Assembly (NCBI GenBank): GCA_938074565.1 | Contig: CALJEQ010000006.1 | Coordinates: forward strand, 186,001 to 250,000 | Origin: an uncultured Alkaliphilus sp. | GTDB taxonomy: Bacteria; Bacillota; Clostridia; Peptostreptococcales; Natronincolaceae | DNA: 64,000 nt | Direction of reading: 5' to 3' | Part shown: positions 3,708 to 60,394 of the stretch, piece by piece | Position numbering within the stretch: position 1 is the first letter of the stretch | How the letters are laid out: every line of letters starts with the position of its first letter | The notes under the pieces: generated by a model | The model's input: the letters and a program-made list of their open reading frames with translations, nothing else | What the model was told of the DNA's origin: nothing | The model's database searches: none | Program-made: the position numbers and the translations under genes

Positions 3708-5468
3708 ATGTTAATACAGCTGAGTAAGTTAATCAATAATGAAAAAAAAACATGTGGGTTTTTATTGTTCTTGTGCATTTATGGTATATTATTATTTCCT
3801 ATTGCTGTACTCGTTCAAGATGGTATGGTAATCGGAGTGATGGCGTTGATATTAGTTATAGTTGCCAGTGCAAAGTGGCTTACTACTGGGGGGATAATAT
3901 CTGCTTTGTGGGCTAGTGTGGTGATAATAGGAAACTTTTTAGTTGCTCCTTATCACATGTTAGGAAGCATGGTCATCTTCTTCACAACTGGAATTGTTGT
4001 AGGGGCATTAGCAAAAAAATTACATGATCACCATTTACAATTAGTATTAAAGAATGAAGCCTTAATTTGGGAAAAAAAGCATTTAGAAGCACTATTTAGA
4101 AACTCACTAGATGCCATCGTATTTTTAGACAAAAATTACTTAATAGTGGACGCAAATCAACACTTTATCCAACTGTTTGGGTATGAAAGAGAGTCCATAT
4201 TAGGAAAGGAATTAGATTATGTTATTCAGATGAGGGAAAAAGGTATAGATGATGGAACACTAAAAAAACAAATGCTGGAAAATGGTGAACAGTTTTTAGT
4301 GGAATCTACATGTTATAATAAAGATTCAAAGGTAATAGAAGTACTTATTAAAGGAGTACCAATTATTATAGATAATGTAATCGTAGGGGGGTATGCCATT
4401 TATGATGACATTACTAACCGTAAATATTATGAAAAACAACTTAAGTACTTGAGTTTTCATGATCAATTAACTGATATTAACAATAGGCTATTCTTTGAAC
4501 AAAACATAGATCAAGTTACTAGTAAAAATGAGTATCCTATCAGTATTATTACAGCAGATCTTAATGGACTAAAACTCATAAATGATACAATGGGGCACTA
4601 TAAAGGTGATGAATTACTAAAGGCTACAGCAAATGTGTTGAAAAATGCTGTAAGAAATACAGATCTGGTCTTTAGAATAGGTGGAGATGAATTTGCTATT
4701 ATTCTACCTTTAACTGATGAAAAGAATTGCGAAATAATGGTAAATCAAATCCGTTCTGCCATTAAAGAGTATAATAAAGACAATAAAGAGACACAAACAC
4801 AAATAAGTATTTCAATAGGTATGGCAACTGCTAAAAATGACGAAATATCTTTGAAGGAAGTTTTTAAAAGAGCTGATGATTTAATGTATGGTGAAAAACT
4901 TTACCAAAGTGCAAGTGTAAGGGCTCAGCTTATAAATACACTAATGGCTGCTTTATCAGAACGAGATCATATTACAGAAGGACATGCTCAAAGACTTGCG
5001 GAAATGAGCCTGTTGATAGGTGAAAAATCCGGATTACCTCCCAATCGCTTTGGAAGTTTAACACTTCTGGCACAGGTACACGATATAGGAAAGGTTGGAA
5101 TCCCTGATAGTATATTACATAAAACAGGTCCCTTGACTGATGAAGAGTGGAAAATAATGCGACAACATTCAGAGAAAGGGTATCGAATTGCTTTAGCATC
5201 ACCAGATCTGTCTAGCATAGCTGATTTAATACTTAAGCACCATGAGAAATGGGATGGTACAGGATATCCTTTAGGTATTAAAGGAGAAGAAATACCGCTG
5301 GAATGTAGAATTATATCTATAGTAGATGCATTTGATGCCATGACAAATGATAGACCTTATCGTAAAGCAAAAAGTAAAGAAGTGGCAATAGAAGAAATAA
5401 AAAAGTGTGCTGGTACTCAATTTGATCCAACCCTTGTGGAAATATTTTTAGAGGTGGTACAGTCTTAA
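3708..5468 (+). CDS. membrane PAS-GGDEF-HD-GYP cyclic-di-GMP signalling protein
   Basis: A 586-residue signalling protein. Residues about 15-115 form several membrane segments, and residues 125-240 a PAS sensor domain (F-R-N-S-L-D-A-I-V-F-L-D). A diguanylate cyclase domain has an intact G-G-D-E-F at about 325-329. The C-terminal HD-GYP phosphodiesterase has H-D at 458-459, the H-H-E-K-W-D-G-T-G-Y-P segment near 510-521 and D-A-F-D-A-M-T-N-D-R-P-Y-R. Both catalytic signatures look intact, so the protein may make and break cyclic di-GMP, with the PAS and membrane part deciding the balance. It stands alone with its own promoter and a strong terminator. The ATG is preceded by AAGGGGTGAG. Confidence 0.9.
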   Translation: MLIQLSKLINNEKKTCGFLLFLCIYGILLFPIAVLVQDGMVIGVMALILVIVASAKWLTTGGIISALWASVVIIGNFLVAPYHMLGSMVIFFTTGIVVGALAKKLHDHHLQLVLKNEALIWEKKHLEALFRNSLDAIVFLDKNYLIVDANQHFIQLFGYERESILGKELDYVIQMREKGIDDGTLKKQMLENGEQFLVESTCYNKDSKVIEVLIKGVPIIIDNVIVGGYAIYDDITNRKYYEKQLKYLSFHDQLTDINNRLFFEQNIDQVTSKNEYPISIITADLNGLKLINDTMGHYKGDELLKATANVLKNAVRNTDLVFRIGGDEFAIILPLTDEKNCEIMVNQIRSAIKEYNKDNKETQTQISISIGMATAKNDEISLKEVFKRADDLMYGEKLYQSASVRAQLINTLMAALSERDHITEGHAQRLAEMSLLIGEKSGLPPNRFGSLTLLAQVHDIGKVGIPDSILHKTGPLTDEEWKIMRQHSEKGYRIALASPDLSSIADLILKHHEKWDGTGYPLGIKGEEIPLECRIISIVDAFDAMTNDRPYRKAKSKEVAIEEIKKCAGTQFDPTLVEIFLEVVQS

Positions 5469-5678: not shown

Positions 5679-6371
5679 ATGAATCGAGTTGCTGTAAAGA
5701 TAAAAGAAGCAAGAATAAAGTCGAAAATGACTGAAAAACAATTAGCGAAAAAATGCGGGTTAACAGAAAATTATATTATGCAAATAGAGTCAGGTAAAAA
5801 AGTAATTAATGAAAAAGCAGCTGAAAACATTCTAAATATTTTGGGAGAAAAAATAGAATTTGTATGTCAACAAGCGATGGTTGAAGAAAAATCTCCTATA
5901 ACTAAAGAAGCAAAACGAGAAGATAAAAATAAAGAAGTGTTTCAACCTATACAACCTACAGAACAATGGGCTGATGCATTGGCTAATATTATTAGGAAGT
6001 TTCCTATATATGAAGTGAATACAAATAAAATAGTAAGCTACAAAGAATTACCCATCCTCAATAAAAAAATAGAAGGATATAATTGGGAAAAAATTTTATT
6101 TATTCAATCTCCTAATAATGAGATGGAGAGTTTACGTATCAAAAAGGATGATATTATCACCATTTATAAGACAAATGAGATACATAATAATAGCATTTAT
6201 TTATTTGAAATGAATGAAAAAAAGATGATTAGACAATTGCGAAAAGAATCGAATAATAAAGTAAGTATTTCTACTGGTACAAAAGGAACTGATCCAATCA
6301 TAACAGAATTAAACAAGGTCAAATTAATTGGAAAATGTGTCAAAGTAGAGTTTAGTTTGGATAATAAATAA
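5679..6371 (+). CDS. XRE-family regulator with an S24-peptidase-like C-terminal domain
   Basis: A 230-residue protein. Residues 7-60 form a classic Cro/C1-type helix-turn-helix (L-A-K-K-C-G-L-T-E-N-Y-I-M-Q-I-E-S-G-K). After a charged linker, residues about 110-225 resemble the LexA/S24 fold: a region like S-M-E-P-x-I-x-x-G-D is present as N-E-M-E-S-L-R-I-K-K-D-D-I, and a lysine is retained in K-K-M-I-R-Q-L. By eye the catalytic serine appears to be replaced, so self-cleavage is doubtful. The fold probably serves dimerisation or sensing. No phage genes surround it and its target is unknown. Confidence 0.75.
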   Translation: MNRVAVKIKEARIKSKMTEKQLAKKCGLTENYIMQIESGKKVINEKAAENILNILGEKIEFVCQQAMVEEKSPITKEAKREDKNKEVFQPIQPTEQWADALANIIRKFPIYEVNTNKIVSYKELPILNKKIEGYNWEKILFIQSPNNEMESLRIKKDDIITIYKTNEIHNNSIYLFEMNEKKMIRQLRKESNNKVSISTGTKGTDPIITELNKVKLIGKCVKVEFSLDNK

Positions 6372-6591
6372 AATTTGTAGTAGTAAGATAGATATGATTT
6401 TACACTGATAAAAGCCTTCAGATTCAAAAACTAAGTAATTCAGCGACTGTAACCATACAAAAATATGTAGAGTACTGAAATCTTGGTAAAATAAAATAAT
6501 AATATTAATCAATAAAAGGATATAAATACAAAGTAATTATTAAAAAAAAGGGTATATTACCAATAGTTAAATATCTATTGGAGGGATTAAT

Positions 6592-7068
6592 ATGAAAGAA
6601 ATTGTATTAGCAGGGGGCTGTTTTTGGGGAGTAGAAGCTTACTTTTTAAGAAAAAAAGGAATTTTAGAGACAGAAGTTGCCTATGCAAATGGCCATATGG
6701 AAAATCCAACATATAAAGAAGTTTGTAGTGGAATAACAGGTCATGTTGAAGTATGTCTTATTAAATATGATGAAGAAGTTATTAGTCTTGAAGAAATATT
6801 AGAGTACTTTTGGAAAATTATAGATCCAATTGCTGTAGATCGTCAAGGTCCAGATGTGGGACATCAGTATAGAACGGGTATATATTATATACATAAAGAA
6901 GACTTAGTCGTTATATTAAAGTCTCTAGAAGAACAACAACTTAAATATCAAGAAAAAATAGCAACAGAGGTTGAACCATTAAAATCCTACTATACCGCTG
7001 AAGTTCATCATCAAAAGTATCTTATAAAAAATCCTAATGGTTATTGTCATATTGATCTAACGAAATAA
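6592..7068 (+). CDS. msrA: peptide-methionine (S)-S-oxide reductase
   Basis: This 158-residue enzyme reduces methionine-S-sulfoxide in proteins. The N-terminal signature G-G-C-F-W-G-V-E (Cys10 catalytic) is intact. Further family blocks are G-H-V-E-V, D-P-x-x-x-D-R-Q-G-x-D-x-G-x-Q-Y-R and a C-terminal G-Y-C-H with a possible resolving Cys152. The length is normal. Some relatives in alkaliphilic clostridia use selenocysteine at the catalytic position; here the codon is TGT, so this copy is the ordinary cysteine form. A TTGGAGGGA site precedes the start and a terminator follows closely, so it is probably monocistronic. Confidence 0.95.
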
Positions 7069-7099
7069 CATAAATTAAATATCAACAATAAAAAGAAGG

Positions 7100-7129
7100 A
7101 TAGCTATGATAATACATGGCTATTTTTTA
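7100..7129 (+). terminator. intrinsic terminator after msrA
   Basis: ATAGCTATG (7100-7108) pairs with CATGGCTAT (7115-7123) with one G-U pair, followed by a T-run. Confidence 0.75.
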
Positions 7130-7244
7130 TGTTAATATGTTAAATTACACTACTAGTGTATACTATTTTATGATTAAAAGTTAGTTATATCATAGCAATA
7201 AATAATTAAATAAATTAATAAGTTAAAAAATATATGGATTTGTA

Positions 7245-7294
7245 TTGACAAAATACACAAAATGCAATAGAATAATAGTTAGTTAAACTAACTA
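7245..7294 (+). promoter_or_regulatory. promoter with palindromic MarR operator
   Basis: TTGACA (7245-7250), a 17-base spacer and TAGAAT (7268-7273) form a good promoter. Directly downstream of the -10 is a perfect palindrome with a central A: TAGTTAGTT at 7276-7284 and AACTAACTA at 7286-7294. MarR proteins bind such 16-20 bp palindromes, so this is very probably the autoregulatory operator of the gene starting at 7316. Confidence 0.7.
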
Positions 7295-7315
7295 ACTTTA
7301 TACGAGGTGAGAACA

Positions 7316-7750
7316 ATGGATAATCAAATGAGTTATAGATTATCAGAAGCTATGTCAGCATTTTGTAGGGCTAATATGAATCAAAAGACTAACCTACCAA
7401 TACGTTCTAGTGAAATGGGTGCATTAATATTCATCACTTTAAATGCGGGGGAACTAGGGGTAAGGGCAGTAGAATTAAGTGATTATTTCGGTATAAAAAA
7501 ATCTTCTGTAAGTTCTATTATCATTTCTTTAGAAAAATTAGGGTACATTAAGCGAACTATATCAGAAAGTGATAAAAGAAGCAGTCCACTTTTTCCTACT
7601 GAAGAGGGGTTAAAGTTGGTTAATGAAGCTTTTGAAGAATATCATAGAATTTCCAGTAAGCTAGTTGCTAAAATTGGTTCGGAAAAATGTGAAGAGTTTT
7701 TGCAAGTACTTAATATGGCAACAAAAATAATTTTGAATGGAGATGTGTAG
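7316..7750 (+). CDS. MarR-family transcriptional regulator
   Basis: A 144-residue winged-helix regulator of the MarR type. The recognition region is V-E-L-S-D-Y-F-G-I-K-K-S-S-V-S-S-I-I-x-x-L-E-K-L-G-Y-I-K-R, and the wing is S-E-S-D-K-R-S-S-P-L-F-P-T-E-E-G. I chose the ATG at 7316 because CGAGGTGAG lies at the right distance, although an in-frame GTG exists nine bases upstream. It is co-transcribed with the NAD(P)-binding reductase that starts three bases after its stop. The palindrome in the promoter suggests autoregulation in response to an electrophile or quinone-like ligand, which is inference. Confidence 0.9.
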   Translation: MDNQMSYRLSEAMSAFCRANMNQKTNLPIRSSEMGALIFITLNAGELGVRAVELSDYFGIKKSSVSSIIISLEKLGYIKRTISESDKRSSPLFPTEEGLKLVNEAFEEYHRISSKLVAKIGSEKCEEFLQVLNMATKIILNGDV

Positions 7751-7752
7751 AC

Positions 7753-8616
7753 ATGAGAGTAATGGTAACTGGTGCGTTGGGAAATGTAGGAAAATACGTT
7801 TTAGAAAGTCTGCTTAGTAAGGGAGTTCAGGTGGTGGCAGCAGATATAAGCATTGAAAAACTTAATAATTTTTATGGGAAAATGGATAATGTAAAATCTG
7901 TGTATTTTGATTTTACAGACCCAAAGACCTTTAAATCAGCACTGAAGGATGTAGATAGGGTATTTTTAATGCGTCCACCCCACTTAGGTAAACCAGAGGA
8001 TTTACTGCCATTTGTGGAAGCCATGTCTCAAGCAAATATTAAGCTAGTGTCTTTCCTTTCTCTTATGGGAGTAGAAAATAATCCAATACCACCCCATCAT
8101 AAAATTGAAAAATTTATTGAAAAATACAATATACCATATGCCCATATAAGACCAGGATTTTTTATGCAAAATATTTCTGGCATACATGCCTATGAAATAA
8201 AAAATCAGAATCAAATATTTATACCTGCTGGCACGAGTAAAACTAGTTTTATTGATGCTAAAGATATTGGTCTTGCCATTGCAACTGTCCTTGCTTCACC
8301 AGATAAATATAAGAATACACAACATACTATCACTGGTCCAGAGTCTTTAGATTATTATCAAATTGCAGATACTCTTACCAATGTGTTAGGTAGAAAAATA
8401 AAATATGCAAAACCATCATATTTAAAATATCGTAGTGTATATATTAAAAATAGAGGTTTTGATAAAGATTATGTTAATGTAACGGTAATGCTTTACTTTA
8501 TGACAAGAATGGGGACAGCAAAAAAAGTAACTGATGAGTTTGAAAAATTAACAGGTAAAAAAGCTAGAACTTTTAAAGAATTTGCTTTAGAGAATATTGA
8601 GGCTTTTCAACAATAA
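7753..8616 (+). CDS. NmrA/SDR-type NAD(P)-binding oxidoreductase
   Basis: A 287-residue atypical short-chain dehydrogenase of the NmrA/QOR2 group. The N-terminal dinucleotide motif is T-G-A-L-G-N-V-G-K-Y-V (residues 6-16), followed by D-F-T-D-P and V-F-L-M-R-P-P. The substrate region has H-I-R-P-G-F-F-M-Q-N and F-I-D-A-K-D-I-G, typical of this family. Such enzymes reduce quinones or act as redox sensors. Immediate linkage to the MarR gene suggests a stress-inducible two-gene unit. A strong terminator follows. Confidence 0.85.
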   Translation: MRVMVTGALGNVGKYVLESLLSKGVQVVAADISIEKLNNFYGKMDNVKSVYFDFTDPKTFKSALKDVDRVFLMRPPHLGKPEDLLPFVEAMSQANIKLVSFLSLMGVENNPIPPHHKIEKFIEKYNIPYAHIRPGFFMQNISGIHAYEIKNQNQIFIPAGTSKTSFIDAKDIGLAIATVLASPDKYKNTQHTITGPESLDYYQIADTLTNVLGRKIKYAKPSYLKYRSVYIKNRGFDKDYVNVTVMLYFMTRMGTAKKVTDEFEKLTGKKARTFKEFALENIEAFQQ

Positions 8617-8634
8617 TAAAATATGTAAGAAAAC

Positions 8635-8669
8635 AAAGACCAAAGAAGGATAGAACTTCTTTGGTCTTT
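8635..8669 (+). terminator. intrinsic terminator of the marR operon
   Basis: A perfect 14-bp stem (AAAGACCAAAGAAG at 8635-8648 with CTTCTTTGGTCTTT at 8656-8669) has a 7-base loop. Confidence 0.85.
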
Positions 8670-8737
8670 ATTAAATTCATTTGATTTATATAAACATTTA
8701 TGATAAATTTAAACTAAAGTTTAAAAGGGATGGTGTT

Positions 8738-9844
8738 ATGACTCAAAGAGAAAAAGAGATATTACATATTATTAAAAAAGATCCCATGATCTCACAACAA
8801 GAAATAGCTGACTTACTAAATATAAATCGTTCATCGGTGGCAGTACATATTGCAAACCTTATGAAAAAAGGATATATAAAGGGGAAAGGGTATATTGTCA
8901 AAGAAGAAAAGATGGTTTGTGTAATAGGTGGCTCTAATATAGACTTACAAGGATTCCCTAATGAAAAACTAACATTAATGGACTCTAATCAAGGGAAAAT
9001 TGAAACGTCACTAGGGGGAGTAGGGAGAAATATAGCAGAAAATTTAGCTAGACTTTCAGTTCCTGTAAGGTTGTTGTCGGCGGTGGGGGATGATTTTTAT
9101 GGACAAAAACTGATGGAAGAAAGTTCCACACTGGGCATTGATTTGAAGAATATGTTCATTTCAAAAGAACATCCTACATCAATGTATCTTTCCATAATGG
9201 ACGAAGATCACGATATGAAAGTTGCCATATCACAAATGGATGTTTATGAAAAGATGGATAAAAAGTATATTCAAGATAACCATCTTTTAATAAAAAATTC
9301 AAACCTTATAGTATTAGATGCCAATATCCCTCAAAATACCATAGACTATATCAGTAGCCTTTTTCAAGAGACCCCTATATTTGTTGATCCAGTATCAACG
9401 GTTAAAGCCATGAGGCTAAAAAACTCAATGGGTAAGTACCATACAATTAAGCCAAATATTTATGAGGTATCGAAACTGTTGGATATGGAGATACATACTA
9501 TTAATGATGTGAGAAAAGCAGGAGAAATTCTCTTAAGTTATGGGATAAAAAGAGCCTTTATAAGTATGGGAAAAGATGGAGTATTTGCTTGTGATAAGGA
9601 TAATGAATTGCTGGTGAAGGCAAAAATATATAATATTAAAAGTGCCACAGGAGCTGGAGATGCGTTTATGGCAGGTCTAGTTAGTGGCTATCTAAAGGGT
9701 AAAACATTAGAGGAAGCTACTGTTTATTCGACAGGTGCTTCTATATTAGCTTTAAAAAGCTATCATACTATAAATCCAGTTATGTCAGAAGATGAAGTAT
9801 TGAAGATATTAGATAATACTGAAATACAAATAAAAATATATTAA
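8738..9844 (+). CDS. psuK: pseudouridine kinase with N-terminal helix-turn-helix
   Basis: A 368-residue PfkB-family sugar/nucleoside kinase. Residues 1-55 form a winged helix-turn-helix (Q-Q-E-I-A-D-L-L-N-I-N-R-S-S-V-A-V-H-I), an arrangement common in Firmicute PsuK-like kinases. The kinase part shows G-G-S-N-I-D, G-G-V-G-R-N-I-A-E-N, P-N-I-Y-E and the catalytic anion-hole motif A-T-G-A-G-D-A-F-M-A-G near residues 307-317. It phosphorylates pseudouridine to pseudouridine-5'-phosphate for the next enzyme, PsuG. I chose the ATG at 8738 because AAAAGGGATGG precedes it; an upstream in-frame start at 8681 lacks a site. The HTH may let the kinase regulate its own operon. Confidence 0.88.
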   Translation: MTQREKEILHIIKKDPMISQQEIADLLNINRSSVAVHIANLMKKGYIKGKGYIVKEEKMVCVIGGSNIDLQGFPNEKLTLMDSNQGKIETSLGGVGRNIAENLARLSVPVRLLSAVGDDFYGQKLMEESSTLGIDLKNMFISKEHPTSMYLSIMDEDHDMKVAISQMDVYEKMDKKYIQDNHLLIKNSNLIVLDANIPQNTIDYISSLFQETPIFVDPVSTVKAMRLKNSMGKYHTIKPNIYEVSKLLDMEIHTINDVRKAGEILLSYGIKRAFISMGKDGVFACDKDNELLVKAKIYNIKSATGAGDAFMAGLVSGYLKGKTLEEATVYSTGASILALKSYHTINPVMSEDEVLKILDNTEIQIKIY

Positions 9845-11401: not shown

Positions 11402-13342
11402 CTATTGGATAATTAGTCTTTGTCCAACTGTTAGTTGACTTGGGTTGGTAATACTATTGTTTTTGATAATGGTATCCATAGAAATACCATATTTTTGTGA
11501 AATTGACCATAAGCTCTCACCAGCCATTACTACATGGGTTATTGTTGTTGGGCTTTGTTTTGAAGGGATAAAAATCTTCTGACCAACAAAAATAGTATTT
11601 GGATTAGTAATATTGTTTGCAGAAACAATTTCATCAACAGTTACTTGGTGGTTTGTTGCAATTTTCCCAAGAGTATCTCCAGCTTTAATAATATACTCTA
11701 TTGTTATTGGAGCAGGAGGCGCTGGAAGGGAGGGTGTAGGAACTTTTAAAACTTGCCCAACAAAGATCATATTAGCATTGGTTAACTGATTTATTTCCGT
11801 TAGATATGCTGTTGTTGTGGCGTGCTTTTCAGCAATTTTACCTAACGTATCCCCTTTTTCAACTGTATAAGTTCCTATTGTAGCACCTATAGGTGGAACA
11901 ACTGGAGTTGAAGGAGGGGTTTGTTTTGTAGGAACTTTTAATTGTTGTCCTACAAATAACATGTTAGGGTTTGCAAGTTGGTTGATTTCTGTAAGGTAAC
12001 CAGCAGTAGTTGAAAATCTTTCAGCAATTCTTCCTAGAGTATCTCCACTTTCAACGGTGTAGGTTTCAAAAGTTACAGGTTGCTTTTCTTCAGTAGGAAG
12101 TTTAGAGAATAAAAATGAAGAAATTCCTGTATTATCAGAGGCAATAAAACGATCACCAACAACCATCATAGGAACTAGAAATCTATTAGCAAATAAGTCC
12201 TCGTTAACTTTTTCTCCACTCTTAATATTATAAAGCTTAATTTTACGATTATTTTCTAATATAATGTGATTATTTGTAGAGATAAAAGGCATTCTACTGT
12301 GAATCAATTGTCCATTACTATTAGAATCAGCATATCTCACATTCCAGTTTTCACCACCAGTGGATGCGTTTAAGGAAATTAAGTTACCTCTATTATCAAT
12401 AAAGTTTACTGCGTCATTAGTTGCATTTAATACACCATTTCGGTGACTAACTCCAAAGTTATTTAGCAACTTATATTGCCATAGGTTTCTACCAGTTGAG
12501 GCATTAAATGCCCTTACAGTAACATTATTGGTGTTTGTAGATACATCTAAAAACAATCTTCCATTTTGATAAACTGGAAAACCAGAAGATGGTGAAAGGT
12601 GAGGGTGAATAGGGGCAATCCACTGAACAAAGGAAGTGTTTTGATCTAATGCATATAAGTTTGTCTCCATAGTGATTTGATTATTTATGAAGAAAAATAC
12701 TTTACCTTCTCCAGTGACAAGTTTTATAGGCATAGGATCATGTTGTCCTAAAGAATGAGACCACTTTCTTTTTCCTGTAGAAGCATCTACTGCAATAATC
12801 TTATTGTTTTTTAAAGGTTGTTTTGTAAATTCATCTACAGAACCATAATAAACATTTCCATTATCAAGTGTAAGGGTACTAAATTTTTCATGCTCTAAAG
12901 GGTCAATTGTCCACTTGATTTCATGGGTATTTCCATGATTTTGAAGTGCATAAATTTTTTCTGATGTTAATAGATAAACCATAGAGCCAGATGCTACTAT
13001 TTGATGTATTTCTTTTGAATTATCAGAAACAAATTCCCATTGGATTGTATTGTTTGTTAGATTTATGGAATACAACTTATGGGGTGCATTCAAATTAGTA
13101 GTATAAATAGTATTAGAATTAACGATGGACCACGGCCTATTTCCTGCTGCAATAGTATTATATTCAGTACTGAATTGTGGATTATGGGTTACAGGAGCAA
13201 AAAAAGAATTTCCAGAATTCCCTCCGTAGGTAAACCATGTATTCAATTGATTGTTGGTAATAGCATCAGCTTTATAGGGTACTAATGCTGATGAGAATAT
13301 CAATAGAGTTAGTACTAAACTAATTAGTATTTTATTTTTCAT
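11402..13342 (-). CDS. secreted PQQ-repeat protein with four C-terminal LysM domains
   Basis: A 646-residue exported protein. It has a signal peptide (residues 1-27). A beta-propeller-like region (about 30-415) has PQQ/quinoprotein-type repeats such as A-V-D-A-S-T-G-K-R-K-W-S and A-F-N-A-S-T-G-R-N-L-W-Q. Four LysM peptidoglycan-binding modules follow at about 427-470, 488-531, 548-591 and 600-645, each with a G-D/E-T/S-L-x-x-I-A core, joined by proline-rich linkers. LysM repeats anchor proteins to the cell wall. The propeller may bind ligands or proteins, as no enzyme active site is visible. The start has AAAGGAGA. It is monocistronic. Confidence 0.88.
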   Translation of the reverse strand: MKNKILISLVLTLLIFSSALVPYKADAITNNQLNTWFTYGGNSGNSFFAPVTHNPQFSTEYNTIAAGNRPWSIVNSNTIYTTNLNAPHKLYSINLTNNTIQWEFVSDNSKEIHQIVASGSMVYLLTSEKIYALQNHGNTHEIKWTIDPLEHEKFSTLTLDNGNVYYGSVDEFTKQPLKNNKIIAVDASTGKRKWSHSLGQHDPMPIKLVTGEGKVFFFINNQITMETNLYALDQNTSFVQWIAPIHPHLSPSSGFPVYQNGRLFLDVSTNTNNVTVRAFNASTGRNLWQYKLLNNFGVSHRNGVLNATNDAVNFIDNRGNLISLNASTGGENWNVRYADSNSNGQLIHSRMPFISTNNHIILENNRKIKLYNIKSGEKVNEDLFANRFLVPMMVVGDRFIASDNTGISSFLFSKLPTEEKQPVTFETYTVESGDTLGRIAERFSTTAGYLTEINQLANPNMLFVGQQLKVPTKQTPPSTPVVPPIGATIGTYTVEKGDTLGKIAEKHATTTAYLTEINQLTNANMIFVGQVLKVPTPSLPAPPAPITIEYIIKAGDTLGKIATNHQVTVDEIVSANNITNPNTIFVGQKIFIPSKQSPTTITHVVMAGESLWSISQKYGISMDTIIKNNSITNPSQLTVGQRLIIQ

Positions 13343-52265: not shown

Positions 52266-53762
52266 TTGTTTGTGGAGGAAGTATTAAATGTTATTAAAGA
52301 CAAAACCTTAACCTATCAACAGAAAGTTATTGGACTGGCAAGAATAGCAGAAAACAGTATTAATGTATTATCTATTAGGGAAGATATTGAAGAATATCGA
52401 CAAGAGGGGATAATATGTGATCTTTATGAAGGAAATGCCCCCTATCGACCAAGATACATCGTACCTAACTATGAAAAGTTTATGGCTAAAGGTAGCGAGT
52501 TTTTAGGATTAAAGCCACCCACAGATATTTGGGAAGCTATTAATAACCTGTTAATATTATATAAACATGTGCCTTCCATTACATCATTTCCTGTCTATAT
52601 AGGGAATATTGATACACTATTAGAGCCTTTTGTAACTGACGAAAAGGAAGCAAGAAAAGCAATTAGTTTCTTTTTAACCCATATAGATAGAACATTGACG
52701 GACTCCTTTTGTCATGCCAATATAGGGCCATTGGAAACTACGGCTGGTAAAATAATATTAGAGGTAGAAAAAGAACTTCAAAATGCTGTTCCTAATATCA
52801 CCCTTAAATATAGTGATGAAACAGCAGATGCTTTTGCTATACAAGCAATAGACACTGCTTTAGTGACAGCTAAACCTAGTTTTGCAAACCATGAAATATA
52901 TACTAAAGATTTGGGTAATTATGCTGTTGTTAGTTGCTATAATGGACTACCTATTGGAGGTGGCAGTCATACGTTAGTTAGATTAAACCTTGCAAAGTTG
53001 GCTGAAAAAACCACAGAAATAGAAACCTTTTTAAAGGTAATTCTACCCGATGCCATAGAAAAAATGGTTACTTATATGGATGAACGTATTAGATTTTTAG
53101 TAGAAGAAAGTGAATTTTTTCAAACCAATTTTTTAGTAAAAGAGGGCTTAATTAATTTGGAAAACTTCACCAGTATGTTTGGGATTTTCGGTTTAGCAGA
53201 AGGGGTTAATCACTTAATTCAACCTCAAAACCAAAAAGAAAAATTTGGTCATGGTGATGTAGCCAATGATTTAGGAATGAAAATAATTAAAAATATATAT
53301 GAAATAGTAAATCAACATAAGGCAAATTACTGTAATGCATCGGGGGGAAAATACTTATTACATGCCCAAGTGGGAACAGACTTTGATCATGGAATTAGTC
53401 CAGGGTGTAGAATACCCATAGGAGATGAACCTGAAATTCATGAACATCTGTTACAATCTGCAAAGTTTCATCAGTTCTTTCCCGCAGGTATAGGGGATGT
53501 TTTTAAATTTGATAAAACCACTAAAAACAACCCTAAATATATACTGGACATTATTAAAGGAGCTTTTACAATAGGGATGCGTTACTTTTCACTGTATTGT
53601 ACACACAGTGACGTAGTACGTATTACTGGATATTTGGTAAAACGTTCAGATATGGAGAAACTAGAAAGTGGTGAACAGGTGCTTCACGACACCGTTGTAT
53701 TAGGTCTGGGTTCTGTAAAGAATCAAAAAGTGTTGGATAGAAGGCTTAGAAAAGATGAATAA
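52266..53762 (+). CDS. yjjI: YjjI-type glycyl radical enzyme
   Basis: A 498-residue glycyl-radical enzyme of unknown substrate. The C-terminal radical motif is R-I-T-G-Y (radical Gly about residue 455), with S-P-G-C-R-I-P-I-G-D nearer the active site. It is much shorter than pyruvate formate-lyase (about 750) and fits the YjjI family in length. The start is either the TTG at 52266 or, more likely by spacing to AGGGAGGG, the GTG at 52272. It is followed by its own activase with an 8-base overlap, a pairing conserved for this family. An anaerobic radical reaction on a small metabolite is expected. Confidence 0.88.
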   Translation: MFVEEVLNVIKDKTLTYQQKVIGLARIAENSINVLSIREDIEEYRQEGIICDLYEGNAPYRPRYIVPNYEKFMAKGSEFLGLKPPTDIWEAINNLLILYKHVPSITSFPVYIGNIDTLLEPFVTDEKEARKAISFFLTHIDRTLTDSFCHANIGPLETTAGKIILEVEKELQNAVPNITLKYSDETADAFAIQAIDTALVTAKPSFANHEIYTKDLGNYAVVSCYNGLPIGGGSHTLVRLNLAKLAEKTTEIETFLKVILPDAIEKMVTYMDERIRFLVEESEFFQTNFLVKEGLINLENFTSMFGIFGLAEGVNHLIQPQNQKEKFGHGDVANDLGMKIIKNIYEIVNQHKANYCNASGGKYLLHAQVGTDFDHGISPGCRIPIGDEPEIHEHLLQSAKFHQFFPAGIGDVFKFDKTTKNNPKYILDIIKGAFTIGMRYFSLYCTHSDVVRITGYLVKRSDMEKLESGEQVLHDTVVLGLGSVKNQKVLDRRLRKDE

Positions 53763-54591
53763 GGGATTTATTAATCGTATTTTACCCTTTAGTTCTGTTG
53801 ATGGTCCTGGGAATAGAACAGCTATATTTCTTCAAGGTTGTAATTTTAATTGTTTATATTGTCATAATCCTGAAACAATTAATATTTGTAATCATTGTGG
53901 AAAATGTTTGGAAGTTTGTAAGATGGATGCTTTATCTATTGTTGAAGGAAAGGTGAAATGGGCTAAAGACAATTGCAACCATTGTCATCGGTGTATTAAA
54001 TTATGCAAATACAATAGTTCTCCACGGGTTTTTGAAGCATCAGTGGAGGAAATAATGGCAGTTTTAAAAAAGAATAAGGTGTTTATTTCTGGAATTACAG
54101 TATCAGGAGGAGAATGTACATTACAAATTCCCTTCTTAGTAGAGTTATTTAAAGAAGTTAAAAAATTAGACTTAACCATTTTTGTAGATACCAACGGGTC
54201 TATTCCTTTATGGAATGAAGGAGAGTTTGTTACATTAGCAGATCAATTTATGGTGGATTTAAAATCTATAGATGCACAGGAACATAAGTCTTTAACAGGT
54301 TCTGACTTTAACATTATTGTAGACAATATTAAATACCTTTCTAAACTCAATAAATTACATGAAGTTAGAACTGTGATTGTACCAAATCTATTAAACAATA
54401 GAAGAAATGTAGAGGAGACTAGTTTGTTAGTTGCTTCATTGAATCCCCTTATAAAATATAAGTTAATAAAATATAGAGGGTTAGGAGTTAGGGAAGGCTT
54501 AATTAATGATTCTTCCCCTACTGAAGAAGACATGAATAAATTGGAAAAAATAGCAAAGGATAATGGTTGTGAAGATGTACAAATAATATAA
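53755..54591 (+). CDS. yjjW: glycyl radical enzyme activase (radical SAM, YjjW type)
   Basis: A 278-residue radical SAM activase. The core motif is C-N-F-N-C-L-Y-C (Cys29, Cys33, Cys36), followed by a ferredoxin-type insertion with two CxxCxxCxxxC patterns (C-N-H-C-G-K-C-L-E-V-C and C-N-H-C-H-R-C-I-K-L-C). S-G-G-E-C and D-T-N-G are typical. The enzyme uses a [4Fe-4S] cluster and SAM to place the glycyl radical on the protein encoded upstream, with which it overlaps by 8 bases. Confidence 0.92.
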   Translation: MNKGFINRILPFSSVDGPGNRTAIFLQGCNFNCLYCHNPETINICNHCGKCLEVCKMDALSIVEGKVKWAKDNCNHCHRCIKLCKYNSSPRVFEASVEEIMAVLKKNKVFISGITVSGGECTLQIPFLVELFKEVKKLDLTIFVDTNGSIPLWNEGEFVTLADQFMVDLKSIDAQEHKSLTGSDFNIIVDNIKYLSKLNKLHEVRTVIVPNLLNNRRNVEETSLLVASLNPLIKYKLIKYRGLGVREGLINDSSPTEEDMNKLEKIAKDNGCEDVQII

Positions 54592-54668
54592 GCAATTGTA
54601 TAATTAAACTAAGGAAAAATAATCGCTTAATTAAAAAAGTAAGATACAAAGACAAAGGAGGGTCTGCA

Positions 54669-55211
54669 TTGATTAAACAGATAAAAGTAAAATTGGATAC
54701 TGTAGAGGGAATGCTTTATTTTTGGCAGGCAACAAAAGATCGAGAAAAGGTTGGCGAAACCTACCTAAATAATATGGCAAGTTTTCCAGAAATGGAGTAT
54801 ATATACGATGATGAGTTTAATAAAGAATCTGTTAGAATGGCACTTAGCGCCATATCAAATAGGGAGATATTTCATAGTGAAAGCAAGAAAGAACGAAAGT
54901 ATTGGAATAATAATATGTGGATGATGGAAGACTTAGGTTATACGAATATGATGGTAACCCCTTTAAAAGTATTAAACTTAGATGCCATTACTGAAAAGTT
55001 GAATAATAAGGGTATTATTTCAAAGTACGAAGAATTAGAAGTGTTTTTTATTCCTGCCCACCAAGATGAATATTCTATACATGATAATAAACTAATTATT
55101 AATTTCTTTCGAGTTAAGCCTGATTTAGTAGAAGAAGATAAATTATTCATTGGAGAAACGCCAATTATAGACTACATAGAAGAAAAATTGGTGGAGTTAT
55201 TGAATAAATAA
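54669..55211 (+). CDS. hypothetical protein after the glycyl radical pair
   Basis: A 180-residue soluble protein that I do not recognise. It has mixed alpha/beta patterning, with D-T-V-E-G-M-L-Y-F-W-Q-A near the start, two Trp-rich patches (Y-W-N-N-N-M-W-M-M-E-D) and a C-terminal amphipathic helix. The start is a TTG after an excellent AAGGAGGGT site. It lies 78 bases after the activase and ends at a terminator, so it may belong to the same transcript. No function is assigned. Confidence 0.7.
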   Translation: MIKQIKVKLDTVEGMLYFWQATKDREKVGETYLNNMASFPEMEYIYDDEFNKESVRMALSAISNREIFHSESKKERKYWNNNMWMMEDLGYTNMMVTPLKVLNLDAITEKLNNKGIISKYEELEVFFIPAHQDEYSIHDNKLIINFFRVKPDLVEEDKLFIGETPIIDYIEEKLVELLNK

Positions 55212-55251
55212 TTGAAAGCGTTTTAACTATGAGTTTATATTTATTATTAGT

Positions 55252-55284
55252 AAAGTCTTTCCTAAATTAAGGAGAGACTTTTTG
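55252..55284 (+). terminator. intrinsic terminator of the glycyl radical operon
   Basis: AAAGTCTTTCCT (55252-55263) pairs with AGGAGAGACTTT (55270-55281; one G-U pair), followed by TTTTTG. Confidence 0.75.
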
Positions 55285-55324
55285 TTATTATACAAGATTT
55301 TTTTAGAGAGTATTTATCGGTTTA

Positions 55325-56257
55325 TTACTTCTTTTTTAGTTTTGGTAGTGTCTCTTTTAACCAATCCATTACTTTAGAAAAGTCTTGTTGTTTTTTACTG
55401 GCTTCAAAATCATTAAAAGGACAACCTCTATTTTTAATTCGTTCAATAATACTTTCCATAGGGAATTGAGTTGGGCTTAAAGTACTAGATACCTCTTGCC
55501 AAAATAATGGAGTTGCCACTAAAGCTTCATCATTACCCCTTAAAGAGTAGGGAGCAATAATGGTTTTACCAGCAGCATGTTGAAGATAATCTACATATAG
55601 TCGATTATCTCTTTTTTTCTTCATCCGTTCAGTGGTAAACCACTTAGGCTCTTTATTGGTTAGAAAATTTGCAATAAACTCTGTAAATATTCTTGTTTCT
55701 TCATAGGTATAAGTATCTTCTGGTAGGGGTATATAAACCTGTAGACCCTTATTACCAGAGGTTTTAATAAAAGAAATTAAATCTAATCTATCAAAAATTT
55801 CCTTCATTATTAAAGCTCCCTCTACAGCTAAATTAAACTCATTTCGAGAGGGGGGGTCTAGGTCGAAAACAATTTCAGATGGCTTACTGGAATATATAGT
55901 ATTAAAGGGAGTATGTAGGTCGATGGAGGCTTGATTACCTAACCATACTAATGTTGGTAAATCTGAACATACTATATAATTTATATCCTCCAGTAAATCT
56001 GTAGAAATAAAGTTTGGAGCATAACTGGGGCAACTTTTTTGGTAAAAATATTCTTCATCTATACCATTTGGGTAGCGTAATACCGTTAAATGACGTTGTT
56101 GTAAAAATGGTAGTAAGTAGGGGGAGACTTCAATTAAATATTGTAAGTATTCCAATTTTACAATGTTTTTTTTCTTCCATAAAACCTTAGAAGGGTTTGT
56201 AATATCCAGTTGTTGGTTTTCTATGGTGATGGTATGTCTTTCTTTAAGTTTAGCCAT
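55325..56257 (-). CDS. ligD: LigD-type primase/polymerase (NHEJ)
   Basis: A 310-residue stand-alone version of the polymerase domain found in multidomain LigD. The catalytic region V-F-D-L-D-P-P carries the metal-binding Asp residues, and L-R-Y-P-N-G, K-T-S-G-N-K-G-L-Q-V-Y and I-A-P-Y-S-L-R-G are family signatures. It fills or extends ends during non-homologous end joining. It is the last gene of the minus-strand Ku-ligase-polymerase operon and starts with an excellent AGGAGGA site 9 bases after the ligase. Confidence 0.9.
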   Translation of the reverse strand: MAKLKERHTITIENQQLDITNPSKVLWKKKNIVKLEYLQYLIEVSPYLLPFLQQRHLTVLRYPNGIDEEYFYQKSCPSYAPNFISTDLLEDINYIVCSDLPTLVWLGNQASIDLHTPFNTIYSSKPSEIVFDLDPPSRNEFNLAVEGALIMKEIFDRLDLISFIKTSGNKGLQVYIPLPEDTYTYEETRIFTEFIANFLTNKEPKWFTTERMKKKRDNRLYVDYLQHAAGKTIIAPYSLRGNDEALVATPLFWQEVSSTLSPTQFPMESIIERIKNRGCPFNDFEASKKQQDFSKVMDWLKETLPKLKKK

Positions 56258-56266
56258 ATAGTCCTC

Positions 56267-57106
56267 CTAATAAATAAAATCAATAAATATTGGGGATCTT
56301 AAAATCCCCTTTGATGTAAAGGCACGTCCCTTTAGTCGGCACTTTAATAAGGGGGTAAGATGTATATATTCCCTATCTTCATGGGTTATAATGGTTTTTG
56401 ATATCTTAAAGAAGGCTTCCCGATGAACAGGTGACATACCTGTTAGAACTAATCCTAGAGGTCTTAAATCTTCATGGCAACATACTAAGGCATTATCACT
56501 CTTTCTATAACCTGAAATAGATGCCACTACTTCAATCCAATTAATAATTTTCAACCAATTGGAGGACCGTTTACCTACATATATGGAGTTTTTTCGTTTT
56601 GCTACAATTCCCTCTAAACAATTCGCTTCAGAAGTTTTAAATAGTTCTTCTCCTTCGGTGTCTATAAAAGATACTTTACGGACAGTGCCCCCATCCTGCA
56701 CCAATTCATTTAAAATCTCTTTCCTTTCTAAAAGAGGTAGAGGTCTTAAATCTTTACCCTTATGATATAAAATATCAAATACCATGAAGGTAACAGGATG
56801 GGTTTCAATAGCTTGTAATATTTTTTCTTCTTTTTTAAGAGAAAAACGTTTTTTAATTCCTTCAAAATCATCCCTACCTAAGGCATCAAAAACCATTGCT
56901 TCACCATCTAAAACAGTATCAGCAGGAAGTTTTTTTAAAAGTTCAGGTAATTGTTTTGTAGCATTTCCTTTATTTCTTGTATAAAGAAAAGGTTCTTTAA
57001 TATTAGAACATATTAGACGAAAACCATCGTACTTAGTCTCAAATATAAAATCTGGTGAAGAAAAAGGAGTTTTAGCAGTTTCCAATAGCATGGGGGGATA
57101 AAACAT
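56267..57106 (-). CDS. ATP-dependent DNA ligase (NHEJ)
   Basis: A 279-residue ATP-dependent ligase with the nucleotidyl-lysine motif K-Y-D-G-F-R (Lys25), D-G-E-A-M (motif III), F-D-I-L-Y (motif IV), E-G-I-V-A-K (motif V region) and W-L-K-I-I (motif VI side). The enzyme has only the minimal catalytic and OB parts, as in small LigD ligase domains. It lies 2 bases from the Ku gene, so translation is coupled. It seals double-strand breaks with the polymerase and Ku. Confidence 0.92.
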   Translation of the reverse strand: MFYPPMLLETAKTPFSSPDFIFETKYDGFRLICSNIKEPFLYTRNKGNATKQLPELLKKLPADTVLDGEAMVFDALGRDDFEGIKKRFSLKKEEKILQAIETHPVTFMVFDILYHKGKDLRPLPLLERKEILNELVQDGGTVRKVSFIDTEGEELFKTSEANCLEGIVAKRKNSIYVGKRSSNWLKIINWIEVVASISGYRKSDNALVCCHEDLRPLGLVLTGMSPVHREAFFKISKTIITHEDREYIHLTPLLKCRLKGRAFTSKGILRSPIFIDFIY

Positions 57107-57108
57107 AA

Positions 57109-57930
57109 CTAAGCCTTCTTTCTTTCAGCAGTATCGGCTTTTTTACGGGTTGAGGTTGTTTTCTTGGGCTTGGTTTTCTTTATACTTTCTTCTAATGCCT
57201 TCATTAAGTCAACAACATTATCTGCCTGTTTTGATTCAACACCTGTTTCATTGGCTACCTTTTCTTGTATTAATTCCATTAAGGCTGTACGATAATCATC
57301 TGTATATTTTTCTGGTTCAAAAACCTCCGTCAATTGATCTATTAGTAGGGTAGCAGTGTCCAACTCTTTTTTAGAGAGATCAACAGTTTCAGGAATATTG
57401 GGGACTTCTTCAATAGATCGCACTTCATCTGGGAAGTGTATTGTTTCCATAATTAAAGTGTTATTGTAGGGACGAATGATTGCCAGTTTTTCTTTAGAAC
57501 GAATCATAATCTTTGCCAAACCAATTTTTTTTGCATCTGATAAAGACTGCCTCAATAGGGCATAGGCTTTTGCACCACCATCACCAGGACTAAGGTAATA
57601 GGAACGGTCAAAATAAATGGGATCTATCTCTTCTAGTTTAACAAAATTGATAATATCAACAGCTTTTCCCTCTTGTTCCTTCTTTAATTTTTCCATTTCT
57701 TCGTCATCTAAAATAATGAATTTATCGGGGGAATATTCGTAAGCCATGACAATATCTTCTTGTGTTACTTCTTCATTACAATGTTCACAGGTTTTTTTAT
57801 ATCTAATTGGTGTTTTACATTTCTTATGTAGTTGTCTTAATTTTATATCTCGGTCTTCAGTGGCGGCATGAAGTTTTACAGGTATATTAACCAGCCCAAA
57901 ACTAATACTTCCCTTCCATACTGTATGCAT
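57109..57930 (-). CDS. ku: Ku protein (NHEJ end-binding)
   Basis: A 273-residue prokaryotic Ku that binds DNA ends and recruits the ligase. The N-terminus M-H-T-V-W-K-G-S-I-S-F-G-L-V-N-I-P-V is diagnostic, followed by C-x2-C-type cysteines (C-E-H-C) and a long alpha-beta barrel. The C-terminal 30 residues are lysine-rich (K-K-T-K-P-K-K-T-type), as in other Ku proteins that use this tail to bind or thread on DNA. It is the first gene of the minus-strand operon. Confidence 0.95.
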   Translation of the reverse strand: MHTVWKGSISFGLVNIPVKLHAATEDRDIKLRQLHKKCKTPIRYKKTCEHCNEEVTQEDIVMAYEYSPDKFIILDDEEMEKLKKEQEGKAVDIINFVKLEEIDPIYFDRSYYLSPGDGGAKAYALLRQSLSDAKKIGLAKIMIRSKEKLAIIRPYNNTLIMETIHFPDEVRSIEEVPNIPETVDLSKKELDTATLLIDQLTEVFEPEKYTDDYRTALMELIQEKVANETGVESKQADNVVDLMKALEESIKKTKPKKTTSTRKKADTAERKKA

Positions 57931-58187: not shown

Positions 58188-58859
58188 ATGAAAATTTATA
58201 TTTCAGATAAAATTAAAGAAGCAAGCCCCAACATTACACTAGGTTGTATAATGGGAAAAGTTAAGGTGGAAAAACATAACCCACAGCTGTGGGAGGAAAT
58301 TTTAAAGATGTGTAATGATATTTCCACTGCTATGGAGGTTACTGATATAGCCAAAAGTAAAAATATTAAAGATGGAAGGATGGTTTATCGTAGCTTGGGG
58401 ATTGATCCAACAAGATACCGTTTATCTTCAGAATCTTTATTAAGAAGGGCAATAAAAGGTAAAGATTTATATCAAGTTAATAACGTTGTGGACATAAATA
58501 ACTTAATTTCCATAAAGTCAAAGTACCCTGTTTGTACCTATGATGTGGAAAAATTAAAAGGTACTATAAAGTTTACTGTTGGTGAAGCAGGAGATTTCTA
58601 TGAGGGAATAGGACGAGGCATGTTTAATGTTGAAAATTTTCCAGTATTTGAAGATGGGGAAGGAAAGTTTGGTAGCACTACATCAGATTCTGAAAGAGCC
58701 ATGATTACCAATGAAACTAAAGAGTTTTTAATGATTTTGGTTTCCTTTAATGGTGATAAGGCTATGGAGGCATATTTAAATGAAGCAGTTGATTTATTAA
58801 CTAAATATGCCAGTGGTGAAGGGTTATTATATCAATGTATTAAAGGAAGTGGCAATTAA
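58188..58859 (+). CDS. B3/4 (tRNA-binding-domain-like) protein
   Basis: A 223-residue protein of the B3/B4 domain family, known from phenylalanyl-tRNA synthetase beta chains and stand-alone editing-like proteins. It has the family-like D-x-N-N-L-I-S-I-K-S-K-Y-P-V segment and G-D-F-Y-E-G-I-G-R. It lies just upstream of hgcA on the same strand (66 bases). It may edit mischarged tRNA or bind a small molecule. A direct mercury role is not supported. It has an AAAGGAG site. Confidence 0.78.
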   Translation: MKIYISDKIKEASPNITLGCIMGKVKVEKHNPQLWEEILKMCNDISTAMEVTDIAKSKNIKDGRMVYRSLGIDPTRYRLSSESLLRRAIKGKDLYQVNNVVDINNLISIKSKYPVCTYDVEKLKGTIKFTVGEAGDFYEGIGRGMFNVENFPVFEDGEGKFGSTTSDSERAMITNETKEFLMILVSFNGDKAMEAYLNEAVDLLTKYASGEGLLYQCIKGSGN

Positions 58860-58925: not shown

Positions 58926-60110
58926 ATGTTGAATGAGGAAGATAATGTTAAAGCACAAAATATTGAAAATAAAAGTTGTTGAGCTGTAGACACCACAAAG
59001 TCTTCTGGGTTGGAAGATAAAATAATAAAAAAGTTTAATAACAAAAATGAAGAAAGTATAAGTGATGACAAAATATTGCATTTAGTTTCTGGAACAATAG
59101 ATTCAAGTATTGGGGAAATAAAAAAAATTACAGAAGAATGGTTAATGAAGGATACCTTAGGGGCTATTTCTGTACGTTTAGGTTTTGGTAGAGATACATA
59201 TAAAGTACCTACGGGGCTATATGCCCTAGGAAATCCCAACTCTGACTCACCGGTATTAGTAACAGCCAACTATAAACTTACATTAGATTACGTAAGAAGA
59301 GATATAAATGGTTTAGATGTATGGATATTAATAATTGATACAAAAGGCGTTAATGTTTGGTGTGCAGCAGGAAAGGGAACTTTTTCTACAGAAGAAATTA
59401 TATATCAAATAAAAAAATGTAAGTTAGAAAAGTTAGTAAATCACAGGGAGTTAATTCTCCCGCAACTGGGGGCACCTGGGGTAGAAGCCTATCAAATATT
59501 AAAATATACAGGATTTACTGCCCATTACGGACCTGTAAGTTCAAAAGATATAAAGGCATATCTCAAAAATAATAAAAAAGCTACAACAGAAATGAGAAAA
59601 GTAAACTTTAATACAGTAGATAGATTAACAGTTGCAGTGTTAGAGTTGGTTCATAGTATAAAATTATTATCCTATATATTTTTACTAATTTTAATAACTA
59701 CAATATTTAGTGAAGTATCATTTAATGGATATAGCAAATTCCTTATAGCGCTAAATAATACAATTCCGTATTTAGTTGCAATAATAATTGGTTCAATATT
59801 TGTACCGTTATTATTACCTTTTATACCATTTAAAATGTTTTCAGTGAAAGCATTAGTTTTGGCAGTATTGTGGAGTTTCGTAGTAATAAGGTACAAAGAA
59901 GTGTTTATGTATATAAATGATTGGAGGGTTTTGACAGCACATGTTTTAGGTTTGACCTCTGTTATCGTATATTTAGGTTTAAATTTTACTGGGTCTTCAA
60001 CCTATGTTTCTTTTTCTGGAGTTTATAAAGAAACCATTCTCACAATCCCAGTATTAGTAGTGGCTATTTTTATGTCACTGGCATTATTGGTAAGTAAAAT
60101 CTTTATATAA
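58926..60110 (+). CDS. hgcA: mercury methylation corrinoid protein HgcA, candidate selenoprotein (in-frame UGA)
   Basis: A 394-residue corrinoid protein that donates a methyl group to Hg(II) together with HgcB. The diagnostic cap-helix motif is N-V-W-C-A-A-G-K (Cys146, lower cobalt ligand), preceded by P-V-L-V-T-A-N-Y-K-L and followed by L-I-L-P-Q-L-G-A-P-G-V and H-Y-G-P-V. About five membrane helices lie at 235-390. I choose the ATG at 58926: its frame reads through one UGA (58980-58982, residue 19), giving a Ser-Cys-Sec-Ala motif. A frame without UGA begins only at TTG 59010 with no convincing ribosome site. A hairpin with a G-rich loop follows the UGA at SECIS distance. If the UGA is a true stop, the protein would be the 366-residue form. 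Confidence 0.85.
58980..59018 (+). promoter_or_regulatory. candidate bacterial SECIS element in hgcA
   Basis: UGA at 58980-58982 is followed by 17 bases and a hairpin: GTCTTCT (59000-59006), loop GGGTT (59007-59011), GGAAGAT (59012-59018), with two G-U pairs. The first loop G lies 25 nt after the UGA, within the 16-37 nt window described for bacterial SECIS elements, which need a G in the first two loop positions. Confidence 0.65.
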
Positions 60111-60127: not shown

Positions 60128-60394
60128 TTGACAATGACTTATTTGAGAAATGTAGCAAAAATAAGCTTAAAGACGGAAAAGTGCATTGGTTGCGGTATAT
60201 GTGTAAATGTATGTCCCCATGAAGTTTTCATAGTTAATAATAGAAAAGCAGTTTTAAAATATAAGGATAATTGTATAGAATGTGGTGCTTGTGATAAAAA
60301 TTGCCCTTTTAAGGCAATTGAAGTAAAGGCTGGGGTTGGATGAGCCTATGCAATCCTAAAAGGGTGGCTTACTGGTAGTAAGCCTTGTTGTTAA
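60128..60394 (+). CDS. hgcB: mercury methylation ferredoxin HgcB, candidate selenoprotein (in-frame UGA)
   Basis: An 88-residue 2[4Fe-4S] ferredoxin, the electron partner of HgcA. Cluster motifs are C-I-G-C-G-I-C-V-N-V-C-P (Cys19, 22, 25, 29) and C-I-E-C-G-A-C-D-K-N-C-P (Cys49, 52, 55, 59), and the N-terminal T-Y-L-R-N-V-A matches the family. The frame then meets UGA (60341-60343, residue 72) exactly where HgcB has its conserved third-motif cysteine after A-G-V-G. Reading on gives A-Y-A-I-L-K-G-W-L-T-G-S-K-P-C-C and a TAA, restoring the Cys-Cys terminus known to be needed in HgcB. A 71-residue truncated form is the alternative. It starts with TTG 60128, 17 bases after hgcA, preceded by AGGGGG. 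Confidence 0.9.
60341..60384 (+). promoter_or_regulatory. candidate bacterial SECIS element in hgcB
   Basis: UGA at 60341-60343 is followed after 22 bases by a perfect 7-bp hairpin: GGCTTAC (60366-60372), loop TGGTA (60373-60377), GTAAGCC (60378-60384). The loop G is at its second position, about 31 nt after the UGA, and carries a GGU like the fdhF element of E. coli. The hairpin is inside the extended reading frame. Confidence 0.75.

Follow-up and report, generated by a model that had tools for sequence, protein, structure and literature searches.

The question raised by this locus is whether an in-frame UGA codon in hgcB ends the gene or is read as selenocysteine (Sec). The window, by which we mean the whole stretch of 64,000 nucleotides analysed here, carries hgcA directly ahead of hgcB, and both frames contain a UGA. 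Our comparative analysis leads us to predict, with a probability of roughly 0.93, that the UGA of hgcB is translated as Sec with the aid of a downstream hairpin, giving an HgcB of 88 residues. The preliminary description of this DNA had already proposed a selenoprotein at this site, and the proposal is well supported by the interchange of Sec and Cys among homologues, by a conserved hairpin and by complete Sec machinery in the genome. Together with HgcA, in which we predict a further Sec, this HgcB would make up a version of the mercury-methylation complex with selenium in both proteins.

The hgcB frame and its homologues

Read through the UGA, hgcB (60128..60394, forward strand, with its TAA stop at 60392-60394) encodes an 88-residue dicluster ferredoxin with a predicted Sec72 and a Cys87-Cys88 terminus. 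The sole in-frame TGA, at 60341..60343, is codon 72; A-G-V-G stands before it, and the 16 read-through residues after it end in Cys-Cys, all as first described. Residue numbers count from TTG 60128. An alternative start, ATG 60134, lies two codons downstream, and we prefer the TTG since the sequence AGGGGG ends 7 nt upstream of it and since the two nearest relatives compared at the N-terminus (L023 and L024) are equally long, although a third (L025) would instead suit the ATG. hgcA ends at 60110, which leaves an intergenic gap of 17 bases. With the UGA read through, the protein reaches 118.2 bits against the NCBIfam HgcB model NF040864 (cut-off 99), with residues 4-88 aligned, and HgcB scores 115.7 bits against the same cut-off in a six-frame search of the genome. 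Both CxxCxxCxxxCP motifs are present (C19, C22, C25, C29-P and C49, C52, C55, C59-P), and their eight cysteines are invariant in 47 aligned sequences, namely the window's and 46 Cys-type rows. Codon 72 falls about 12 residues past the second motif, where the family has a conserved Cys (or Sec), and the tail contains at least one Cys, as the family expects, in the form of Cys87-Cys88. The public gene call at this locus (P0003, 60134-60340) is 69 residues long and terminates at the UGA.

For comparison we assembled 137 hgcA loci, the window's own included, consisting of the best 80 of 576 confirmed contig stretches and 57 loci from the same order, class and phylum. The 576 came from a contig scan with an alignment as query; the same scan with a single protein as query gave no match. 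Removal of 7 duplicates left 130 loci, of which two yielded no HgcB (L130, L170) and three end before the site (L114, L125, L132), so that 125 genes are readable. In this sample, which includes the best 80 of 576, the codon at the HgcB site is TGT or TGC in 112 genes and TGA in 13. Our site pattern required Cys or UGA after the motif, and every one of the 125 readable genes matched it. The search thus bears out the claim that the UGA stands in place of a conserved Cys; because relatives of the query are over-represented in the sample, 13 of 125 should not be read as a natural frequency. The TGA genes include, among the matches listed, those of Natronincola peptidivorans, Anaeromonas frigoriresistens, Alkaliphilus peptidifermentans, Peptoclostridium litorale and two metagenome bins. 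That a chance UGA would not produce such a gene, as had been argued from the window alone, holds by virtue of this Sec/Cys interchange and of the constraint on the hairpin described below, and not by virtue of folding alone.

The Cys-Cys ending was also put forward as a conserved feature of the family, and here the claim stands in part: a CC within the last four residues is frequent, being found in 88 of 112 Cys forms (again in the sample that includes the best 80 of 576), but it is not universal, since it occurs in 7 of 13 Sec forms. Among the other Sec forms, L164 and L166 have C-x-C or a similar ending, and L062, L063 and L163 have a single tail Cys, the last of these provided that the UGA which follows acts as a stop. 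The tail of L058 (1137-1187, minus strand), GVGU-VLAIVKGVLTGRGKKA, has no Cys at all and breaks the usual rule. The L163 tail contains a second in-frame TGA (PHCD-TGA-RKYKA, then TAA), which matches the last Cys codon before the stop in L164, its neighbour in the tree; this TGA may either end the gene in the ordinary way or encode another Sec.

Downstream hairpins and a second UGA in hgcA

The hairpin of hgcB (60366..60384, forward strand) has a perfect 7-bp stem, GGCTTAC/GTAAGCC (60366-60372 paired with 60378-60384), and a TGGTA loop (UGGUA in the RNA, 60373-60377), and it starts 22 nt past the UGA, exactly as in the preliminary description. Bacterial SECIS elements have a loop of 3-14 nt, lie 16-37 nt from the UGA and carry a G within the first two loop bases. 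By these limits, taken from general background, the window's hairpin does fit the bacterial rules, and a SECIS-like hairpin with G at the loop start is present in all 13 Sec-HgcB genes. Judged by single-sequence folding, neither this hairpin nor that of hgcA is exceptional: the hgcB hairpin is modestly unusual over 25 nt (z -2.45, equalled by 4 of 200 shuffles), and over 51 nt z is -1.19 (equalled by 24 of 200). An Rfam search of the window returned no family above its gathering score.

The stronger signal comes from comparing genes at the window's exact stem offset, where 82 of the 91 pairs that the 13 Sec genes could make are formed, 5 to 7 of 7 in each gene. When synonymous codons were resampled according to the codon usage of hgcA and hgcB at each locus, the mean was 51.7 and the maximum 64, and 82 was reached in none of 5000 draws. 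Taken gene by gene, two of the 13 miss P 0.05 (L088 at 0.148 and L020 at 0.0605). For the 112 Cys genes the count is 415 of 784 pairs, where the null gives 398.3 and 4 of 500 draws reach the observed value; this excess is small and far below that of the Sec set. Within the Sec genes, two-sided changes occur in 4 of the 7 stem pairs, and the covariation score is higher than in any of the 500 shuffles or the six slides, although one of five covariation measures, further pair types, is unremarkable (reached by 166 of 500 shuffles). Of the genes that encode the peptide LTGS[EKR]P, 10 of 10 with Sec but 2 of 11 with Cys form a perfect 5-bp stem (Fisher p 0.0002). A broader scan for the best loop-G hairpin gave medians of -10.6 kcal/mol for Sec and -6.85 kcal/mol for Cys genes (p 0.002); in the same scan 55 of 112 Cys genes also had such a hairpin at -7 kcal/mol or better, so the presence of a hairpin is by itself weak evidence. 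The 13 hairpins are not independent events, since the Sec genes are related. What the comparison establishes is that the hairpin in Sec genes is kept beyond the demands of the protein sequence.

The UGA of hgcA was overlooked in the preliminary description. A plain list of open reading frames starts hgcA at an internal TTG (59010-60110) and loses the N-terminus, whereas the frame is open back to ATG 58926 if the TGA at 58980..58982 is read, giving M-L-N-E...K-S-C-U-A-V-D. The resulting 394-residue corrinoid/membrane protein (58926..60110, forward strand) has a predicted Cys18-Sec19 (motif SCU) near its N-terminus and the cap-helix motif NVWCAAGKG, and at full length it scores 378.8 bits against the NCBIfam HgcA model NF040863 (cut-off 275). 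A SECIS-like hairpin at 59000..59018 on the same strand, with a 7-bp stem that includes two G-U pairs and a GGGUU loop, starts 17 nt past the UGA. HgcA is therefore a second predicted selenoprotein beside HgcB, with an N-terminal Cys-Sec.

A Cys-UGA ahead of the HgcA core was found at 23 loci. Five were set aside by eye, since the Cys-UGA lies upstream of a plausible start or another UGA comes next (L017, L066, L085, L093, L140), and 18 were kept, so that HgcA Sec occurs at 18 of 130 loci, the window and 17 others, in the sample that includes the best 80 of 576. Three of the 18 (L065, L088, L168) lack an ATG ahead of the Cys-Sec, and their start would be TTG or GTG. With the distance limits relaxed to 12-37 nt and in a scan of the 18 Sec genes without a control set, all 18 show, after the UGA, a hairpin whose first two loop bases include a G, at -4.0 to -17.8 kcal/mol. 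A CC occurs within the 75 residues ahead of the HgcA core at 73 of the 130 loci of this sample, the stretch being untrimmed to the start codon. Across the 125 genes readable at the HgcB site, both proteins have Sec in 9, HgcB alone in 4, HgcA alone in 9 and neither in 103, an association with Fisher p 2e-6 if relatedness is ignored. L020 and L021 have Sec in HgcB together with an HgcA reading that lacks any N-terminal Cys or Sec extension, and HgcB Sec thus appears not to need the Cys-Sec tail of HgcA.

Selenium machinery and competing explanations

If the UGA is translated as Sec, the genome should be able to make and insert it, and the check for selA, selB, selC and selD that had been called for finds all four on contig C5: selD at 3048-4088 (406.9 bits), selA at 6026-7429 (621.9 bits), selB at 7442-9337 (375 bits) and the tRNA-Sec gene selC at 12636-12728 (72.9 bits). 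The SelD of this genome itself contains a UGA, in the motif SSAGU (G000 contig C5, L060 3048-4088). We also chose 24 other genomes with hgcA: 17 of Sec type (in HgcA or HgcB), which were all those detected in the set from the same order, class and phylum apart from G992, a duplicate of L066, and 7 Cys-only genomes of our own selection. A tRNA-Sec above the family cut-off is present in 17 of 17 Sec-type and 3 of 7 Cys-only genomes; at 60 bits or more, a threshold picked after the scores were known, the counts are 17 of 17 and 2 of 7 (p 0.0005). SelB above its cut-off likewise occurs in 17 of 17 and 3 of 7. Of 14 control genomes, 5 exceed the cut-off for tRNA-Sec and 2 that for SelB, while weaker matches below the cut-offs turn up in every genome and in all 14 controls and are uninformative.

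How would the data look if the UGA were simply a true stop, with the cell making a 71-residue ferredoxin core that lacks the helix and the tail? The protein database does carry a 69-residue call at the locus, and UGA does terminate frames elsewhere in the window, ending 3 of its 49 open reading frames of at least 150 residues. From this usage the genetic code appears globally unaltered, and we rejected a global code change as the source of the in-frame UGA. We nevertheless consider a true stop very unlikely, for family-like sequence downstream of the codon is kept in the 13 UGA genes, whose proteins have a median identity of 65% (60 residues compared), Cys occupies the site in the other genes, the hairpin is under constraint, and, according to passages of PMC7305189, Ala in place of this Cys abolishes methylation in strain ND132. 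The notion that the UGA reflects an error in sequencing, or a null mutation of recent origin in a pseudogene, draws on the draft state of the genome, which is in 67 contigs, and is scarcely credible given that the same codon is UGA in another 12 distinct genes, of which six come from named public records, and that hgcA has its own UGA and hairpin, as it does at 17 other loci.

It is also conceivable that the UGA is suppressed by another amino acid such as Trp or Cys, or is leaky, with no selenium involved. Against this stand the tRNA-Sec and SelB found in all 17 other Sec-type genomes tested, the SECIS-like hairpin at a fixed distance and the use of UGA as a stop elsewhere, and we regard suppression as extremely improbable. 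A different kind of objection accepts the selenoprotein and supposes that this HgcAB clade acts on a substrate other than mercury. The confinement of the Sec rows to one separate clade could be taken in its favour; on the other hand, HgcA and HgcB both exceed the NCBIfam equivalog cut-offs, and the cap-helix Cys motif of HgcA and both cluster motifs of HgcB are intact, so that we think another substrate unlikely. Our preferred reading thus remains that ribosomes would insert Sec at the UGA of hgcB, assisted by the hairpin.

Descent, possible function and known systems

A tree of 125 concatenated HgcA and HgcB rows, built by a quick method with the site and the tail excluded and rooted at its midpoint, places all Sec forms of either protein within one 23-row clade (SH-aLRT 84), which also includes one row with neither Sec (L070). 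The 13 HgcB-Sec rows fall in an 18-row set (support 98) together with 5 HgcB-Cys rows. Three state changes are needed for HgcB and three for HgcA, and the join of L168 with L088, which is relevant to the history of HgcB, has a support of 19. The simplest reading of the HgcB history would be one gain of Sec and two reversions to Cys, where the unrooted counts are blind to gain versus loss.

In this sample, which includes the best 80 of 576, the window's closest rows are Natronincola and Alkaliphilus peptidifermentans. Upstream of hgcAB, at 52266-57930, the window has genes for a YjjI-family glycyl radical enzyme, a radical SAM protein, Ku and two LigD-like proteins. Relatives of all five surround hgcAB in Alkaliphilus peptidifermentans, with identities of 84% for Ku, 67 and 53% for the LigD-like proteins, 69% for YjjI and 56% for the radical SAM protein; the YjjI pair is on the opposite side of hgcAB. 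This common locus suggests common descent. None of the Ku, LigD-like, YjjI or radical SAM genes has a relative at the remaining five named Sec loci tested, and a search of viral contigs found no relative. A B3/4-domain gene at 58188-58859 was considered as a member of the hgcAB unit and rejected: the best 80 of 576 loci, in stretches of 3 to 17 kb, some ended by contig edges, contain no B3/4 match, and we therefore treat it as an unrelated neighbour.

What might Sec do in HgcB? Passages of PMC7305189 on Desulfovibrio desulfuricans ND132 report that changing Cys73 to Ala abolishes methylation, and that loss of either tail Cys has no effect whereas loss of both lowers activity by 95%. In the model of the same source the C-terminal helix begins with Cys73, which lies some 13 A from a cluster, and the proposal there is that the tail brings Hg(II) to the corrinoid and passes methylmercury to Cys73. 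Our predicted HgcB structure (mean pLDDT 85.9, 47 sequences, with Cys substituted for Sec) has a helix that begins at residue 72, after the ferredoxin core. Because this helix start parallels that of Cys73, Sec72 most likely replaces Cys73 and, by analogy with the published model (PMC7305189), would accept methylmercury from the C-terminal cysteines. The Cys-Sec tail of HgcA may be a further mercury ligand. Most likely a selenolate would bind Hg(II) or methylmercury more tightly, or exchange it faster, than a thiolate does, the alternative being redox tuning.

One could go further and imagine that a clade of clostridial methylators rebuilt the HgcAB path on selenium, with the Sec in the HgcA tail and the Sec at the HgcB helix start jointly passing on Hg(II) and methylmercury as a selenolate relay, and with HgcB Sec being ancestral to the 18-row clade and later replaced by Cys in two groups. 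We offer this larger picture tentatively and think it rather doubtful as a whole. Selenium binds mercury very tightly, and since the predicted Sec sits where a Cys is needed for methylation, this natural enzyme pair offers a direct test of the role of that residue. Sec and Cys genes of HgcB coexist within one clade, and three named Sec-type species have DSM strain numbers: Natronincola peptidivorans (DSM 18979), Alkaliphilus peptidifermentans (DSM 18978) and Peptoclostridium litorale (DSM 5388).

The preliminary description knew of no report of selenocysteine in HgcB, and this must be corrected, as the prediction has been in print since 2023: the table of a 2026 review (PMC13188914) lists HgcB as a selenoprotein (NF040864, motif GVGU), credited to Haft & Gwadz 2023, and HgcA as well (NF040863, motif CU), credited to Haft & Gwadz 2023 and an older reference, and a passage of a 2024 PNAS paper (PMC11588087) says that recent analyses have suggested that there may be selenoproteins among the homologues of hgcA and hgcB. 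The pair described here is a well-supported further example of this published kind and not a first. What the present analysis may add is that Sec is predicted in both proteins of one genome, along with the evidence from codons on the hairpin and the clade pattern. A literature search on HgcA or HgcB and selenocysteine, judged mostly by titles and abstract openings, found no experimental test of Sec in HgcB announced. PMC2398784, which seems to be the reference 61 that PMC13188914 cites for HgcA, contains none of three subunit terms in its main text, and the main text of PMC12013277 mentions neither HgcA nor HgcB. Among solved structures, a search for HgcA returned only four sequences of corrinoid iron-sulphur protein subunits.

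Four known systems invite comparison. The Sec-assisted organometallic (SAO) system, credited to Haft & Gwadz 2023 in the review (PMC13188914), also consists of predicted selenoproteins for the handling of organometals, but its proteins differ from HgcAB, and a search of this genome for SaoB gave no match, as was equally so in the control genomes. With the Cys-type HgcAB of ND132, as described in passages of PMC7305189, our pair shares both CxxCxxCxxxCP motifs, a conserved residue some 12 positions past the second, a Cys-containing tail and the conserved Cys of HgcA; it differs in having a predicted Sec for Cys73, a shorter tail and a predicted Cys-Sec at the HgcA N-terminus. The remaining two are the selenoprotein forms listed in the review's table. 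The window's HgcB belongs to the same family as NF040864 and has the same GVGU site motif, and we found no difference from that form, except that the window gene is called truncated in the database; its HgcA, like NF040863 with its CU motif, would carry an N-terminal Cys-Sec ahead of the corrinoid domain, and here too we found no difference.
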